Assembly: GCA_022567155.1 (NCBI GenBank) | Contig: JADFHN010000003.1 | Coordinates: forward strand, 1-64,000 | DNA: 64,000 nucleotides | Source: Bacteroidota bacterium | Lineage (GTDB): Bacteria > Bacteroidota > Bacteroidia > Cytophagales > Cyclobacteriaceae | Direction: 5' to 3' | Shown: in pieces, positions 2,598-63,255 of the stretch | Numbering within the stretch: the first letter of the stretch is position 1 | Layout: the number at the start of each line of letters is the position of its first letter | Translations under genes and position numbers: made by a program | The notes under the pieces: generated by a model | Databases searched by the model: none | Told to the model about the DNA's origin: nothing | What the model saw: only the letters and a program-made list of their open reading frames with translations

Positions 2598-4022
2598 TCA
2601 ATCCACTTCTACATACTTCTTATCCCCGCACATACGTACCACTTTTGGCCAAAACATACCAACTACTTCGACCAGGTCTTTCTGATACTTCATGACTTGA
2701 TAGATGTCCTTATATACCATCGGCGCTTCGTCCAAACCAGAGCCAATCACATCTACACCGGCTTTTTTAAGGTGTCTGGCCACTTCATTATGAGTGAATG
2801 TTCGCCTGGCTTCACGCCGTGACATCACCCGGCCGGCTCCATGGGCAGCCGAATTAATAGACTTCACATCACCCTTACCTCGAACAATAAATCCGGGACT
2901 TGTCATAGTTCCCGGAATTACACCCAATACATTTTTGCCGGCAGGTGTTGCACCTTTACGATGCACAATAATTTCATTTCCAGCATCATCACTTTCCTTC
3001 CAGGCAAAATTATGGTGATTTTCCACAGTAGCGAGAGGTTCTTCTGCCAACGCCTGAGCAAATCGTTCATGGATCTGCTGATGGCAAGCCGAGGCGTAAT
3101 CGCCTGCCAGGTTCATCGCTTTCCAGTATTCCTGCCCTTCCTCCGAATCCAGGGTTAACCAGGCCAACTGCCGTGCTTCACCCGGAAGCTCACAGATTTG
3201 TTGTGCCAGACGGGTATAATGACGTGCAATTTCAGCTCCCATACCCCGTGATCCTGAATGAGATAACAGAGCCATGTATTTGCCCGGCTGCAACCCGAGC
3301 CTATCATCAAATTCGGGTATCTCCAGAATTCCAAACTCGACGAAATGATTCCCCCCTCCTGATGTTCCAATCTGGTCACTCGCCCGGTCCAAAAGCTCTC
3401 GGAGCACCTTAATTTCTTTGAATTCTTGCCTTTCCAGTACGGGATGGTCCCGGGGCTTTGTAAATGCAGCCCGCCCAAAGCGTGTATTCTCCACCAGCAT
3501 TGTTTTTAGTTGCTCCCGGTTTTGATCAAGAAATTCTATCGGCAGATCATAGGCGCTGATTCGCATGCGGCAACCAATATCTACCCCCACCCCATATGGT
3601 ATTACCGCATTATCTGAAGCTAGCACACCTCCTATAGGCAGGCCGTAGCCCGGATGTGCATCAGGCATTAATGCCCCTGAAATGGTAATCGGAAGTTTCA
3701 TAGCTACGTCCATTTGTTGACGTGCTACTGTGTCAATACCCTCTTCACCGTATATAGGATAACTGGAAGACTTGCTTCGAATCTTCTTTGGCACACTCCC
3801 AAACCGGTAGGTTTTTTTTATCAATTCCTTAGCCACTGTTCCTAATTTGGGATGATCTTTGTAAAACGCCGGGCTCGTAACTACTCTTTTCATCAGAGCC
3901 CGTATTTGGATTATGTTTAACTTCCTGTATTCACTTTCTAAAACGTGTATTGCCTTCAGAATAACTTCCTTCGGAAATCCCAAACTTCGCAACTCTTTGT
4001 CTATCATCTTTTTAGATATCAC
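2598..4022 (-). CDS. rtcB: RNA-splicing ligase RtcB
   Basis: A 474-residue RtcB. The enzyme joins RNA 2',3'-cyclic phosphate or 3'-phosphate ends to 5'-OH ends using GTP and Mn2+. Metal and guanylylation residues are all visible: Asp121 and His123 in MPDAHPGYGLPIGG, Cys151 in GVDIGCRM, His226 in GGGNHF, His255 in SHSGSRG, and the His that takes GMP, His394, in AAHGAGRVMSRR. Length fits the family. No rtcA, rtcR or archease gene is adjacent, so this looks like the stand-alone repair form rather than the sigma54-controlled operon. The start is preceded by 140 bases of AT-rich DNA that could hold its promoter. Confidence 0.96.
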   Translation of the reverse strand: MISKKMIDKELRSLGFPKEVILKAIHVLESEYRKLNIIQIRALMKRVVTSPAFYKDHPKLGTVAKELIKKTYRFGSVPKKIRSKSSSYPIYGEEGIDTVARQQMDVAMKLPITISGALMPDAHPGYGLPIGGVLASDNAVIPYGVGVDIGCRMRISAYDLPIEFLDQNREQLKTMLVENTRFGRAAFTKPRDHPVLERQEFKEIKVLRELLDRASDQIGTSGGGNHFVEFGILEIPEFDDRLGLQPGKYMALLSHSGSRGMGAEIARHYTRLAQQICELPGEARQLAWLTLDSEEGQEYWKAMNLAGDYASACHQQIHERFAQALAEEPLATVENHHNFAWKESDDAGNEIIVHRKGATPAGKNVLGVIPGTMTSPGFIVRGKGDVKSINSAAHGAGRVMSRREARRTFTHNEVARHLKKAGVDVIGSGLDEAPMVYKDIYQVMKYQKDLVEVVGMFWPKVVRMCGDKKYVEVD

Positions 4023-56919: not shown

Positions 56920-57550
56920 ACTAAAGTTTCGCACCTCCAATTGCAGCCCATTTAGCGGGGTTGAGGTGCCTCTATTTGCTATAACATTTTTTATTTTGCC
57001 GGCCGGCAGGCGGGCATTTCTGGCATTAAGCAGCAATCTTGCCAATATCTTTATTACCCAATATACTATTGAGGTATTCAGCAGCCTTCTCATCATTGAA
57101 CAACTTTTTGATGATATCATCATAGTCAATTCCATCAAATACTGTTTCTATTATCTTGACCAATTCAAGGAACAAGCCCCAAAGCCGCTCATTGAGCCGG
57201 TATAGAATGATATCTTCTTCCCGCCAAGCGGGATAGCGCCCCTTTACTTTCATAATGGTCAAAGCGGAACCTCAAGGTCAATATCAGGTGCTGCACCATT
57301 GTTATGGTCAGGTCGGTTATCTAGTGCATCAAAGTCGTTAGACTGACACCTGCCCAGTCCCAACAATTGCTTCGATTCTTTTAAAAAATACCTCTATTGT
57401 CCATCTAGTCTGATAGATTTCTATCATCTGAATAAAGGACAAACCCGGATTGGTTGTAATAAAAACTTTCCATTTGCCGTTCTTCCCCTGACGGCTGAAA
57501 AACAGTTTGATCTTCTTTGATTTCCATTCCACAATGGCCTGTTTATAATA
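56920..57550 (-). mobile_element. 3' part of an IS4-type insertion sequence
   Basis: The minus strand from about 57550 to 57026 encodes the C-terminal half of a DDE transposase in at least three frames. KKIKLFFSRQGKNGKWKVFI, IQMIEIYQTRWTIEVFFKRI (the YxxRWxIExFFK signature with the catalytic Glu) and CQSNDFDAL come first. Then, after frameshifts, come LILTLRFRFDHYESKGALSR and LNERLWGLFLELVKIIETVF. The 5' half with the two catalytic Asp is missing. The right end of the element appears to be near 56920-56940 (AGTTTCGCACCTCC). The left junction lies inside lplA. Confidence 0.8.
57026..57262 (-). pseudogene. Transposase C-terminal fragment
   Basis: The open frame gives 78 residues; from about residue 13, REEDIILYRLNERLWGLFLE onward is the C-terminal tail of the IS4-type transposase described for 56920-57550, ending KDIGKIAA. 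The first dozen residues are out-of-frame noise created by the frameshift. It cannot be functional on its own. Confidence 0.8.
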
Positions 57551-58030
57551 GAAACCAAAAAGGAAGTTACCGGTTACAACTTCAGCGTCATCAATCGTAC
57601 CTGCTCCTGTCCCCGCAATCTTTTTACCATCAACATGAACATCGTTGACTGGATGGTAATACGCATCAATTCCAAAGAACTTGTAGGTTTCAACCAATGG
57701 TTTAATAAATAATTGAAAGCGGTGATCTGATCTTGCAGGCAATACGCCCTTCTGAAATATCCACTGCACAAACAACTGCCCCTCAACGATATACACTGTC
57801 CCTCCACCTGTTTCTCTGCGTATTACAGGAATATGATTTTTCTGACAGTAATCAAGATTCAATTCCAGAGCCGCATCCTGAAAAAACCCAATACACATGT
57901 ACCTGCTTTGTGGTGTTACCAGCACAATTGTATCAGGCGTGTCAGGTGTTTGCACGTAACTCAATCCATGATAAAGGGTCTGCGACCTTACAAATGACAC
58001 AGTCCCCGCATCGATTAACCTCACAGCCAT
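57338..58030 (-). pseudogene. lplA truncated and fused in frame to transposase
   Basis: A 230-residue chimera. Residues 1-160 are a lipoate-protein ligase A-type domain: RRETGGGTVYIVEG (71-84, the RRxSGGGxVY motif), DVHVDGKKIAGTGAG with the catalytic Lys (131-144) and VVTGNFLFGF. From residue 161 (about 57550) the frame continues without a stop into the transposase: YYKQAIVEWKSKKIKLFFSR to the FFKRIEAI signature. About a third of the LplA domain and its C-terminal part are lost. It would be the fourth gene of the ArsR-TusA-DsrE operon. Ligase activity is doubtful. Confidence 0.85.
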
Positions 58031-58061
58031 ACCATATCAGCCCGGCAATCCGGGGTATATA

Positions 58062-58574
58062 TTAAATAAACAAACTCACATTTGCATCTGCTGCGAATTC
58101 CAGATAGGTTGCAGCTCCCGCAATTTCAGCCTCCTCAATAAATTCCTCCCTCTTGAATCCGAATACGTCCATAGTCATCTGACAACCAATCATTCTGACA
58201 TTCATGTCAATTGACATATCCCGTAACTCCTCTATAGAGGCCACTCCCTTGTTTTTAAAAGTCTTTTTCATCAGACTTGTAGCCATCGATTCGAATCCGG
58301 GAATGTTATTTGCAATCAAATTCGGAATCGGCCAGTTGAAATTCTGAAATCCTTCAGGTCCAAAAGGCATTTTCATTGGCATTGCTGGATTGCTGCCTGG
58401 TGAAATTGTTGCTTTAAAATCTTTTTTCAGCAACAGCAACCCGTAAAAAGTGAAAAATATCCCCACTTCCCAATCCATCGAAGCTGCAGCAGTAGCCAAA
58501 ATAAATGGCGGATAGGCCCAGTCCAGGGTTCCGCGACTGGATATCAATGCAAGTTTGCGTTTTCCATTTTCCAT
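58062..58574 (-). CDS. DsrE-family sulfur-transfer protein (DsrE3A-like)
   Basis: A 170-residue DsrE/DrsE-fold protein. GTLDWAYPPFILATAAASMD starts the fold; FFTFYGLLLLKK is typical of the DsrE3A group, as is a single conserved Cys131 in VRMIGCQMTMDVFG, the presumed persulfide carrier. C-terminal AEIAGAATYLEFAADANVSL completes it. In sulfur oxidisers DsrE3A takes sulfane sulfur from or passes it to TusA. It is 12 bases downstream of tusA and 31 bases upstream of lplA, on the same strand. Confidence 0.88.
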   Translation of the reverse strand: MENGKRKLALISSRGTLDWAYPPFILATAAASMDWEVGIFFTFYGLLLLKKDFKATISPGSNPAMPMKMPFGPEGFQNFNWPIPNLIANNIPGFESMATSLMKKTFKNKGVASIEELRDMSIDMNVRMIGCQMTMDVFGFKREEFIEEAEIAGAATYLEFAADANVSLFI

Positions 58575-58585
58575 AACATATAGTT

Positions 58586-58825
58586 CTAATGTGTTTTCCT
58601 GATTAAAAAACGAAATGTCTCTCCTTCATCATGTGATTCAAGAAGTTCATGCTGCGTTTGCCTTGCCCAGGCTTCCATATCCGGCATGGCACCCGAATCG
58701 GTGGAAATCATCTCAAGGATTTCTCCTACCTCTATTTCCGTGATTGCTTTTTTGGTTTTTACTATCGGTATCGGGCAAAGCGTACCCGAACAATCCAGTG
58801 TTTTAACAACTTTAAGGTCATTCAT
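58586..58825 (-). CDS. tusA: TusA-family sulfur carrier
   Basis: A 79-residue TusA/SirA protein. The family motif with the sulfur-binding Cys is LDCSGTLCPIPIVKTKKAI (Cys12, and Cys17 in CPIP). The rest, VGEILEMISTDSGAMPDMEA to FRFLIRKTH, follows the family fold. It shuttles persulfide sulfur between proteins. Its place next to DsrE and LplA indicates a role other than the classical 2-thiouridine relay. Confidence 0.9.
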   Translation of the reverse strand: MNDLKVVKTLDCSGTLCPIPIVKTKKAITEIEVGEILEMISTDSGAMPDMEAWARQTQHELLESHDEGETFRFLIRKTH

Positions 58826-58877
58826 TTTGTTGGAAATTAATTTACTACTAGATAAACAGGTTTATGATCGATATAGT

Positions 58878-59180
58878 TTAAATATTACAATTATAAATAC
58901 AGTCAAAAACTTTTGTGATTTCTTTAAGCGCCAGTTTGTAATAAATATTCCTCCCCTGCCTCAACGATTCGATGATTCCTATGTTTTTCATTTTCTTCAG
59001 ATGAAGTGAGAGTAACGAAGGTTCTATTTTAACTTCATTTAATATTTCGCCTACAGAATACGATTTGCCGTCTTCTAGCAATTCGGGAATTTCAAGCCTG
59101 ACCGGGTATGCAAGACCTCCGAATATCTCAGCTACTTTGCCGAGTTTCATCGGGCTTATTCTTCTTTTTATTGCTCCCAC
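58878..59180 (-). CDS. ArsR-family transcriptional regulator
   Basis: A 100-residue winged-helix protein. VAEIFGGLAYPVRLEIPELL and SVGEILNEVKIEPSLLSLHL are the first helices and the recognition helix; LRQGRNIYYKLALKEITKVF is the wing and last helix, followed by FDCIYNCNI with two C-terminal Cys (about 93 and 97). The N-terminal Cys of persulfide-sensing members (SqrR, BigR type) is not seen. It starts the sulfur/lipoate operon and likely represses it, responding to sulfur compounds or metal. tusA is 52 bases downstream. Confidence 0.88.
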   Translation of the reverse strand: MGAIKRRISPMKLGKVAEIFGGLAYPVRLEIPELLEDGKSYSVGEILNEVKIEPSLLSLHLKKMKNIGIIESLRQGRNIYYKLALKEITKVFDCIYNCNI

Positions 59181-59469
59181 CTTAAGATATTATTTTGAAA
59201 ACTGAGTTACAGTAAATAAATAATTTTACAATAGTTCAAGTATTCAAGTGTTGATTTTTTAAATAACTTATTTTGCACAATAAATGCCCTGATAAATGAT
59301 ATTCAGAAAATGAAATTGTTGTGCTTGTATGGCAAGATTTTACAGGCACAAAGGCAGGCTTACGTTTCCCGATCCCGATAGCTATCAGGGATCAGGGACC
59401 AGCGCCAAGACTTGCGTCAGGGAGAATTCATTGCCAGCTTTATCCGGTTAATCCCCGAAATAAGTATAC
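59181..59469. other. Gene-free stretch upstream of the ArsR gene
   Basis: Should carry the promoter of the sulfur operon near 59190-59240. At about 59379-59401 is a near-palindrome (GATCCCGATAGCTATC, then AGGGATC). No coding frame is convincing; a plus-strand frame crossing this stretch is repeat-derived. Confidence 0.4.
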
Positions 59470-59603
59470 CGTCATTACCCTGTCTGCCTGTCCACCTTCA
59501 CTTCGTTTGCGTCTGCGCCGAAGTCGGCTACGACGCAGGAGCACGGCGGACAAAGTCCGGTATGGTTTATCCTGGTAGGCCCGGGTAATCCCTAAAAAAA
59601 CAC
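59470..59603. repeat. Palindromic element, partial copy B'
   Basis: Begins CGTCATTACCC at 59470 and ends in GGGTAATCCCTAAAAAAACA (near 59584-59603), matching the left part of the full copies at 33752 and 59604, but with a foreign GC-rich middle (GAAGTCGGCTACGACG). Its right end is replaced by the next copy. It appears to be a copy split by the neighbour. Confidence 0.6.
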
Positions 59604-59749
59604 TGTCATTACCCGGTTTCTTGTCTGCCGAAGCTTAAGCGTAGGCAGAATCCGGGTAATCCCCCTAACGAAACACTAATTCCGGTTTGTTCTATACTGA
59701 CTCAAACGAGGGGATTATCCGATATCGCTGTGCGATTCGGGTAATGACG
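59604..59749. repeat. Palindromic element, copy B
   Basis: Runs from TGTCATTACCCGG to CGGGTAATGACG. Its right half, GTAATCCCCCTAACGAAACA and GGGGATTATCCGATATCGCT, aligns with the reverse complement of copy A over its whole length. The left end contains an extra hairpin (TCTGCCGAAGC...GTAGGCAGA), possibly a nested second repeat. It is the best evidence that A, B and C are one family. Confidence 0.78.
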
Positions 59750-62832: not shown

Positions 62833-63255
62833 TTACTGTGTTATCCCGTATGCCCGATATTCAGACATTTCTTTTTCAAAACTAAGCTTTTTGTGAATTT
62901 CAGTTTGCAAAGCAATATAGCTTGATACTTTCGGAACTTCTTCAAATGAAACAGCCGTGGCCCAGTATCCTTTTTGCCAATACAGCTTATTTTCATGATT
63001 TGTGTTAAACCAATGACTGCACTCCCCTTTTGTCCAGCCTACCACCTCTGACAATGAACGATAGGAAGGAAGTTTGATAAGAACATGAAAATGTTCCGGG
63101 GCACTATTGATAGCTACAACTTTAGTATCACGCATTTTGAAATTCCGTAGCAGCCGTTCCGTTATTTCAGTACTCAAATCGTTCGTTAATAATGGCGTCC
63201 ATCCTTTGGTAGCAATAATCACATGGACAAACACATTTACAATTGAAACGCTCAC
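62833..63255 (-). CDS. Y1 (IS200/REP-associated) transposase
   Basis: A 140-residue HUH-type single-strand transposase. The HUH pair is in APEHFHVLIKLPS (His about 54 and 56) and the catalytic Tyr is Tyr112 in KVSSYIALQTEIHKK. IS200/IS605 and REP-associated (RAYT) enzymes share this core. No tnpB or classical IS ends are visible next to it. The upstream 350 bases hold a 9-bp hairpin and a full palindromic element, which makes a REP-type relation worth testing. The protein looks intact, so the element may be active. Confidence 0.88.
   Translation of the reverse strand: MSVSIVNVFVHVIIATKGWTPLLTNDLSTEITERLLRNFKMRDTKVVAINSAPEHFHVLIKLPSYRSLSEVVGWTKGECSHWFNTNHENKLYWQKGYWATAVSFEEVPKVSSYIALQTEIHKKLSFEKEMSEYRAYGITQ

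Follow-up and report, generated by a model that had tools for sequence, protein, structure and literature searches.

An ArsR-TusA-DsrE2 gene group ending in a cut lipoate ligase: probable leftover of a type II sHdr-LbpA locus in a Cyclobacteriaceae genome

A window of 64,000 nucleotides (contig JADFHN010000003.1 of assembly GCA_022567155.1, a Bacteroidota bacterium of the family Cyclobacteriaceae) carries on its minus strand, from 59180 to 57338, open reading frames (ORFs) for an ArsR-family regulator, TusA, a DsrE protein and a lipoate ligase, in that order. These four genes are very probably the 5' end of the patchily distributed type II sHdr-LbpA locus of Bacteroidota, and a leftover of it rather than a new small system. 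The ligase gene is cut, relatives with the same gene order continue into the sHdr genes, and searches of the genome for HdrA, LbpA, LipS1 and the DNA between lpl1 and hdrB1 failed to recover the rest. Here, Lpl1 denotes the ligase on the TusA/DsrE side of the locus and Lpl2 the second ligase, beside LipS1. The best-matching locus, L043, belongs to a metagenome-assembled genome (MAG) of Flammeovirgaceae and serves to place some of the boundaries in the following features:

59181 to 59336, minus strand: presumed promoter/operator upstream of arsR (the blastn match to L043 starts at 59336)
58878 to 59180, minus strand: ArsR/SmtB-family regulator, head gene of the locus (GTG start; PF01022, 38.7 bits; NF033788, 61.2 bits)
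58586 to 58825, minus strand: TusA sulfur carrier (PF01206, 83.6 bits, cut-off 28.6; CPIP in the translation)
58062 to 58574, minus strand: DsrE2-type protein of 170 residues with a single cysteine (PF13686, 164 bits; NF047629, 197.6 bits)
57543 to 58030, minus strand: 5' part (about 162 codons) of lpl1, the lipoate-protein ligase of the sHdr locus (PF21948, 94.3 bits, profile positions 19-146 of 200; the L043 match ends at 57543)
57026 to 57542, minus strand: decayed 3' remnant of an IS4-type transposase gene, in frame with lpl1, its far end being an estimate (NF049925, profile positions 285-334 of 449)

The genes are separated by 52, 11 and 31 bases, and Pfam assigns the four ORFs to HTH_5, TusA, DrsE_2 and LplA-B_cat. 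The preliminary description of this stretch had proposed four minus-strand genes for ArsR, TusA, DsrE and LplA; they are present and in order, but the fourth is a ligase-transposase chimera. Indeed, the ORF at 58030-57338, open over 230 codons, is ligase up to about residue 162, while a model for IS4 transposases matches its residues 170-218. The alignment with the intact L043 ligase gene ends at 57543, inside lpl1, and downstream of the junction the transposase reading shifts frame. The complete ligase that is part of sLpl(AB)-LipS1/S2 lipoylation is thus not found here, the window copy being cut at about 162 codons. Judged from the sequence, the gene order is real, yet an intact four-gene system it is not.

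The head gene has the same position and order in L043 and other relatives. Its product contains two cysteines in total, C94 and C98, which form a C-X3-C pair near the C-terminus, and the BigR model gives it 43.1 bits (cut-off 155). The same pair lies near the end of 13/13 ligase-linked ArsR proteins and of two of the nine other ArsR matches examined; the 13 ligase-linked proteins, besides that of the window, are those of L043-L046, L051, L061, L062, L077, L088, L089, L097, L153 and L154. This pair may act as a sensor. TusA proteins are characterized by a CPxP cysteine motif, which the TusA of the window has together with the PF01206 match, and it is the sole TusA match in its genome. The DsrE protein, 93% identical to that of L043, had been described as DsrE3A-like, a label for which DsrE2-type is the better choice. 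In particular, the full-length NCBIfam model NF047629 (SulfCarrDsrE2) matches it with 197.6 bits, below the cut-off of 210, and the closest solved structures are 2qs7 (52.8 bits) and 3pnx (52.7), followed by 3mc3 (37.7). In the part of PMC4175335 that treats these proteins, 2QS7 is DsrE2B, 3MC3 is DsrE3A and Cys-X7-Cys is the DsrE3A motif. The window translation, with its one cysteine, does not contain Cys-X7-Cys, and on these features the protein is probably DsrE2-type, not DsrE3A.

To see what follows the head genes in other organisms, bacterial and archaeal genomes were scanned with the DsrE protein, and the best 80 of 575 confirmed loci were taken. A relative with an uncut lplA, of the kind that the preliminary description wished to see compared, is L043, which shares the four genes at 87.2% DNA identity over 1801 bp (57543-59336). 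There the intact ligase of 375 residues is followed by an unknown protein of 83 residues, a second DsrE, a GcvH-like LbpA1, HdrC1 and HdrB1, near the contig end. L046 extends further, to HdrA, Hyp, a fused HdrCB, LbpA2, LipS1 and Lpl2. Lpl1 is present in 14 of the 80 loci, always downstream of TusA and DsrE2, with ArsR in front in 11 of the 14. Eleven of these loci extend to lbpA1 and ten to hdrC1; in L044, L045 and L097 the contig stops within the second dsrE or shortly after it, and every Lpl1 locus whose contig runs past that gene (11/11) continues into lbpA1. With L153 and L154 added, 12 of the 16 other loci with Lpl1 behind TusA-DsrE2 continue into lbpA1, while the remaining four (L044, L045, L097, L154) hit the contig end before it. 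The contig of L051 ends in lbpA1, and the locus is taken up by another contig of the same genome (L147).

The type II sHdr arrangement is defined, in the section of PMC11582611 concerned with it, by hdrC1B1A-hyp-fused B3 plus etfAB in one cluster. The shdrC1B1A-hyp-B3 order occurs in L046, L061, L062, L081, L088, L089, L146 and L153, and etfBA with a large Fe-S protein in all five relatives followed to the far side of the locus (L146, L158, L159, L160, L161). Since C1B1A-hyp-fused B3 and etfBA are both present (the latter in 5/5 read that far), these relatives agree with the published type II. In their locus, which is probably the etfBA-linked group III arrangement of PMC6067878, as far as the relevant text of that paper describes it, the part beyond the point at which the window's lpl1 is cut spans about 9.2-9.5 kb up to where lpl2 ends and, by the coordinates of G534, about 14 kb up to where the last Fe-S gene ends. 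The Bacteroidota setting given in the preliminary description agrees with the nearest relatives.

Three further features of the relatives' loci were recorded. Two lipoate ligases per sHdr locus, one on the TusA/DsrE2 side and one on the LipS1 side, are found in L046, L061, L062, L088 and L089. In 10 of the 14 Lpl1 loci (L043 at 3433-3684, L044, L045, L046, L051, L061, L077, L088, L089, L097), a small conserved protein of about 81-92 residues is encoded in the interval from the ligase gene to the second dsrE; the L043 copy has no match in Pfam and NCBIfam, and the protein is a possible candidate for a Bacteroidota sHdr accessory protein. The tusA gene of L046 (7582-8124) encodes two TusA-like halves in tandem, 180 residues in all.

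The genome of the window (4.09 Mb in 171 contigs, 98.7% complete) was then searched for the missing parts, as the preliminary description had advised for sHdr subunits, LbpA and LipS1, and none of HdrA, an LbpA-type GcvH and LipS1 was found in it. The L043 DNA from lpl1 to beyond hdrB1 matches the stub at 57543-58030 alone, and a search of the genome for HdrA gave no match; as a control, HdrA was found in 10 of 12 carrier genomes, one of these hits being a fragment of 31 residues where a contig ends. The sole PF01597 match in the genome is the canonical GcvH (TIGR00527, 160.3 bits, cut-off 115.85). This model recognises the LbpA proteins of both relatives scanned, so that it would find LbpA if it were present. 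LipS1 (NF053742) has no match in the genome at E 0.001; among 14 control genomes, nine matched below the cut-off of the model and none above, and the LipS1 of L046 scores 230.3 for a cut-off of 230. The HdrCB query returned one match at 37% identity, similar to the secondary matches at 37-38% in four of six carriers (G528, G531, G534, G537), and the other ligase-family protein of the genome is LipB. Thus neither the shdrC1B1A-hyp-B3 order (HdrA and hdrC1-hdrB1 DNA negative, hyp not searched) nor the LbpA of the sHdr-LbpA pathway was found in the genome. At the locus itself, etfAB is missing, with the transposase behind the cut ligase, a result that applies to the locus as no genome-wide search for Etf was made. 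Since sHdr, LbpA and LipS1 were not found, the sHdr-LbpA chemistry cannot run in the genome as assembled.

The preliminary description had left two options, a stripped remnant or a smaller, undescribed TusA-DsrE-lipoate system. The former is upheld, as relatives share the head and then carry sHdr genes, several of them in a full type II locus, the rest of which was not found in the window's genome. The latter, a functional minimal system with a short ligase, is hardly credible: the four genes do lie next to each other and the chimeric ORF runs for 230 codons without a stop, but the ligase retains profile positions 19-146 of 200 with a tail that is transposase, LbpA and LipS1 were not found in the genome, and all 12 other ligase-bearing loci with enough sequence go on into lbpA1, the other four of the 16 reaching a contig end first.

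Several observations weigh against taking the four genes as a leftover of an sHdr locus, and they concern the assembly, the partners of the head genes elsewhere, the DsrE2 tree and the selection acting on the genes. As for the assembly, the 171-contig draft was judged without reads, and a misjoin at the transposase is possible. HdrA was also missed in two of the 12 carrier genomes (G529, G539), so that a draft genome may lack it for technical reasons. An intact sHdr locus might then exist in the organism, the contig having been misjoined at the insertion sequence, and the break does lie within a transposase. On the other side, completeness is 98.7%, no displaced sHdr genes turned up in searches at the DNA and protein level, and 15 locus proteins have no match elsewhere in the window or in the 35.7 kb of contig beyond it. 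Moreover, the transposase stretch has two short partial matches on other contigs and no second full copy in the genome, and is therefore not an evident collapsed repeat. All in all, an assembly artefact is improbable.

As for the partners, 40 TusA-bearing loci extend 5 kb or more beyond dsrE2, and HdrC1 is present in 21 of them and absent from 19. Among the 80 loci, 18 have ArsR-TusA-DsrE2, of which four (L068, L072, L083, L095) have 10 kb behind dsrE2 with neither Lpl1 nor HdrC1; by their titles, three are Marinimicrobia or Neomarinimicrobiota and one is Euryarchaeota. Three Lpl1 loci of Calditrichota (L079, L081, L092) show no ArsR match. In L068, L072 and L095 the three head genes are followed by a rhodanese plus metallo-beta-lactamase protein, which we take to be persulfide-dioxygenase-like; NrfD/Fe-S and molybdopterin oxidoreductase genes come next in L068 (9394-16146), and molybdenum-cofactor genes lie farther on in L083. 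The same head module thus fronts a different sulfur pathway in L068, L072 and L095, and TusA-DsrE2 alone is not diagnostic of sHdr. What links the window to the sHdr locus is its ligase, together with the 87% identity shared with L043.

The DsrE2 tree pairs the window with L043 as sisters (SH-aLRT support 93). All five rows closest to the window come from Bacteroidota: four have Lpl1 on their contig, and in one, L053, the sequence breaks off at dsrE. A broader Bacteroidota group (12 rows) has a support of 81, is drawn open and leaves the Saprospiraceae row L062 outside, and no starred set of the tree holds the window. With regard to distribution, a DsrE match occurs in 10 of 148 genomes of the order sample, namely the window's own and nine others at 31-37% identity, and in 100 of 395 genomes of the phylum sample. 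The one phylum match at 52% (G396, L143) shows TusA-DsrE2, while the other 13 locus proteins are all missing from its 17 kb. TusA occurs in five of 60 genomes of the family sample, including the window's own. The other four all show ArsR-TusA-DsrE2-Lpl1, extending to LipS1 in L153, to the second ligase in L155 (the same as L089) and to lbpA1 at the contig end in L152 (the same as L051), while L154 ends in the ligase at the contig end.

Two origins of the genes were considered and set aside. A housekeeping origin of TusA and DsrE is not favoured, with 55/60 family genomes lacking TusA and 10/148 order genomes having a DsrE match. A mobile carrier as the source is not suggested either, given that DsrE relatives are found on 138 plasmid and four phage records, all below 60% identity and none of them a close source. 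Separately, in five genomes of the same class (G368, G376, G482, G486 and G527) a DsrE2-like match lies inside open frames of 821-844 residues, which suggests fusion proteins. In the Chlorobiaceae loci L090, L091, L094, L100 and L103, DsrE2 lies near TusA and no Hdr or LbpA query protein was matched in the locus; L094 has one weak DsrE-family match.

As for selection, the four gene pieces of the window and L043 differ with a synonymous rate (dS) of 0.470 and a nonsynonymous rate (dN) of 0.050, a ratio of 0.106. When changes were polarised with up to 11 outgroups (L046 omitted for TusA owing to its tandem duplicate, L062 unused), the window branch had 32 codon changes that alter the amino acid and 36 that are synonymous, compared with 19 and 35 for L043 (Fisher p 0.20). 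The amino-acid changes were 30 vs 18 (p 0.11) with fewer outgroups and 32 vs 19 (p 0.09) with two more. These last points complete those opposed to a plain leftover, as ArsR, TusA and DsrE2 have open frames and show no significant relaxation of selection. Among 177 columns invariant in the outgroups, four are changed in the window alone (ArsR H56L, DsrE2 P47L and V57I, ligase D82V) and one in L043 alone; with fewer rows the same count gives five and none. Strong decay of the surviving genes, considered as a candidate, is not borne out, both branch contrasts being non-significant. By rough arithmetic, genes free of constraint since the split would have several-fold more amino-acid changes. That fewer are seen points either to a deletion that is recent on this scale or to continuing selection on the three whole genes.

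The second of these possibilities leads to a reading in which the sHdr engine was lost while ArsR-TusA-DsrE2 was kept as a small carrier unit responsive to sulfane sulfur, the ligase stub being passive wreckage. Such a unit might sense or buffer persulfide, or feed another enzyme such as a persulfide dioxygenase. This overlaps with the leftover reading and differs from it just on whether the three genes are still used. The three open frames, the conserved upstream region, the dN/dS of 0.106 without significant relaxation, the fact that this TusA is the only one of the genome and the existence of ArsR-TusA-DsrE2 without sHdr in other phyla (L068, L072, L083, L095) all speak for it. On the opposite side, 55 of the 60 family genomes do without TusA and the other four have it in the same locus, so that no separate need is seen. 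In addition, the changes at invariant columns (four in the window, one in L043) are few but point toward decay, a recent deletion predicts an equally low dN/dS, and no enzyme of the rhodanese-metallo-beta-lactamase type follows the genes in the window. We regard the kept unit as a tentative and rather doubtful proposition. The stricter claim that, after the loss of sHdr and LbpA, an ArsR-controlled TusA-DsrE2 pair stays under selection as a stand-alone unit for sensing and carrying sulfane sulfur is unlikely; the pair would perhaps be re-wired to another sulfur enzyme, by analogy with the ArsR-TusA-DsrE2 loci of other phyla. If true, this would be an example from nature of an energy pathway cut back to its front end.

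Under the preferred reading, that of a leftover type II locus, we infer a deletion, loss as the direction of change and the functions of the genes. Most likely, the deletion fused lpl1 at about codon 162 to an internal position of a decayed IS4-type transposase gene. The part lost downstream would comprise the rest of lpl1, the small unknown gene, the second dsrE, lbpA1, hdrC1-hdrB1-hdrA-hyp-hdrCB and lbpA2, and further lipS1, lpl2, a second radical-SAM-like gene and etfBA. By homology with the published system, the operon of intact relatives would be regulated by ArsR, sulfane sulfur would reach sHdr by way of TusA and the DsrE proteins, and LbpA would be lipoylated by the ligases together with LipS1. 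What remains in the window would be a regulator and two sulfur carriers, which may be decaying after a recent loss or be kept for other sulfur handling.

Two neighbouring features were also noticed. At 59455-59700, upstream of the operon and beyond the DNA that L043 has in common with the window, there are repeats around ATTACCCGG-type motifs, both direct and inverted. At 62833-63255, minus strand, an IS200/REP-associated tyrosine transposase-like protein is encoded, under both curated cut-offs.

Comparison with known systems places the locus further. With type II sHdr-LbpA, as outlined in the pertinent text of PMC11582611, the window shares the head of ArsR, TusA, DsrE2 and ligase, ordered as in the Bacteroidota loci that have the type II genes, whereas the sHdr, LbpA and LipS1 part was not found in its genome and the ligase is cut. 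As in the sLpl(AB)-LipS1/LipS2 system, in the portion of PMC10332631 describing it, the relatives carry LipS1, a neighbouring Lpl2 and two LbpA genes in the locus; in contrast, the window ligase is a truncated Lpl1, LipS1 was not found, and the genome has LipB and a canonical GcvH. The dsrE3A-dsrE2B-tusA cluster of Metallosphaera cuprina, in the corresponding part of PMC4175335, resembles the locus in having TusA beside a DsrE2-type protein and, in the relatives, a link to Hdr-like genes, but the window has no DsrE3A, another gene order and ArsR in front. The sulfane-sulfur sensing repressors sHdrR and SoxR are likewise of the ArsR family, which heads the shdr locus in the relatives, although the window ArsR has the C-X3-C pair C94/C98 and not the Cys50/Cys116 pair; many proteins found by the sHdrR model lack the latter pair as well, according to the text on this model in PMC12423496. 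The loci L068, L072 and L095 share the three head genes and have other partners, none of which is seen in the window.

In the published system, as the relevant sections of PMC6067878 and PMC10332631 present it, LbpA is essential and receives its lipoyl group through a dedicated ligase acting with LipS1/LipS2, and the sulfane sulfur is presumably supplied by TusA and DsrE-like proteins. The link between sulfane-sulfur transfer and lipoylation that the preliminary description pointed out is published sHdr-LbpA biology and is not new. With respect to taxonomy, the relevant text of PMC12345210 assigns binned sHdr to Proteobacteria, that of PMC10451225 mentions Bacteroidota for Sox, and that of PMC13384644 describes MAGs of other phyla with Hdr-like genes; no claim is made that the Bacteroidota sHdr locus is unpublished.

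Collectively, the claimed new system is replaced by the probable loss of a known one. Of more use is the by-product: MAGs from several Bacteroidota lineages share a conserved type II sHdr locus that has two lipoate ligases, an ArsR with a C-X3-C pair and a small unannotated protein. The locus of the window is a truncated member of this known kind, and its ArsR, TusA and DsrE2 may possibly still be in use.

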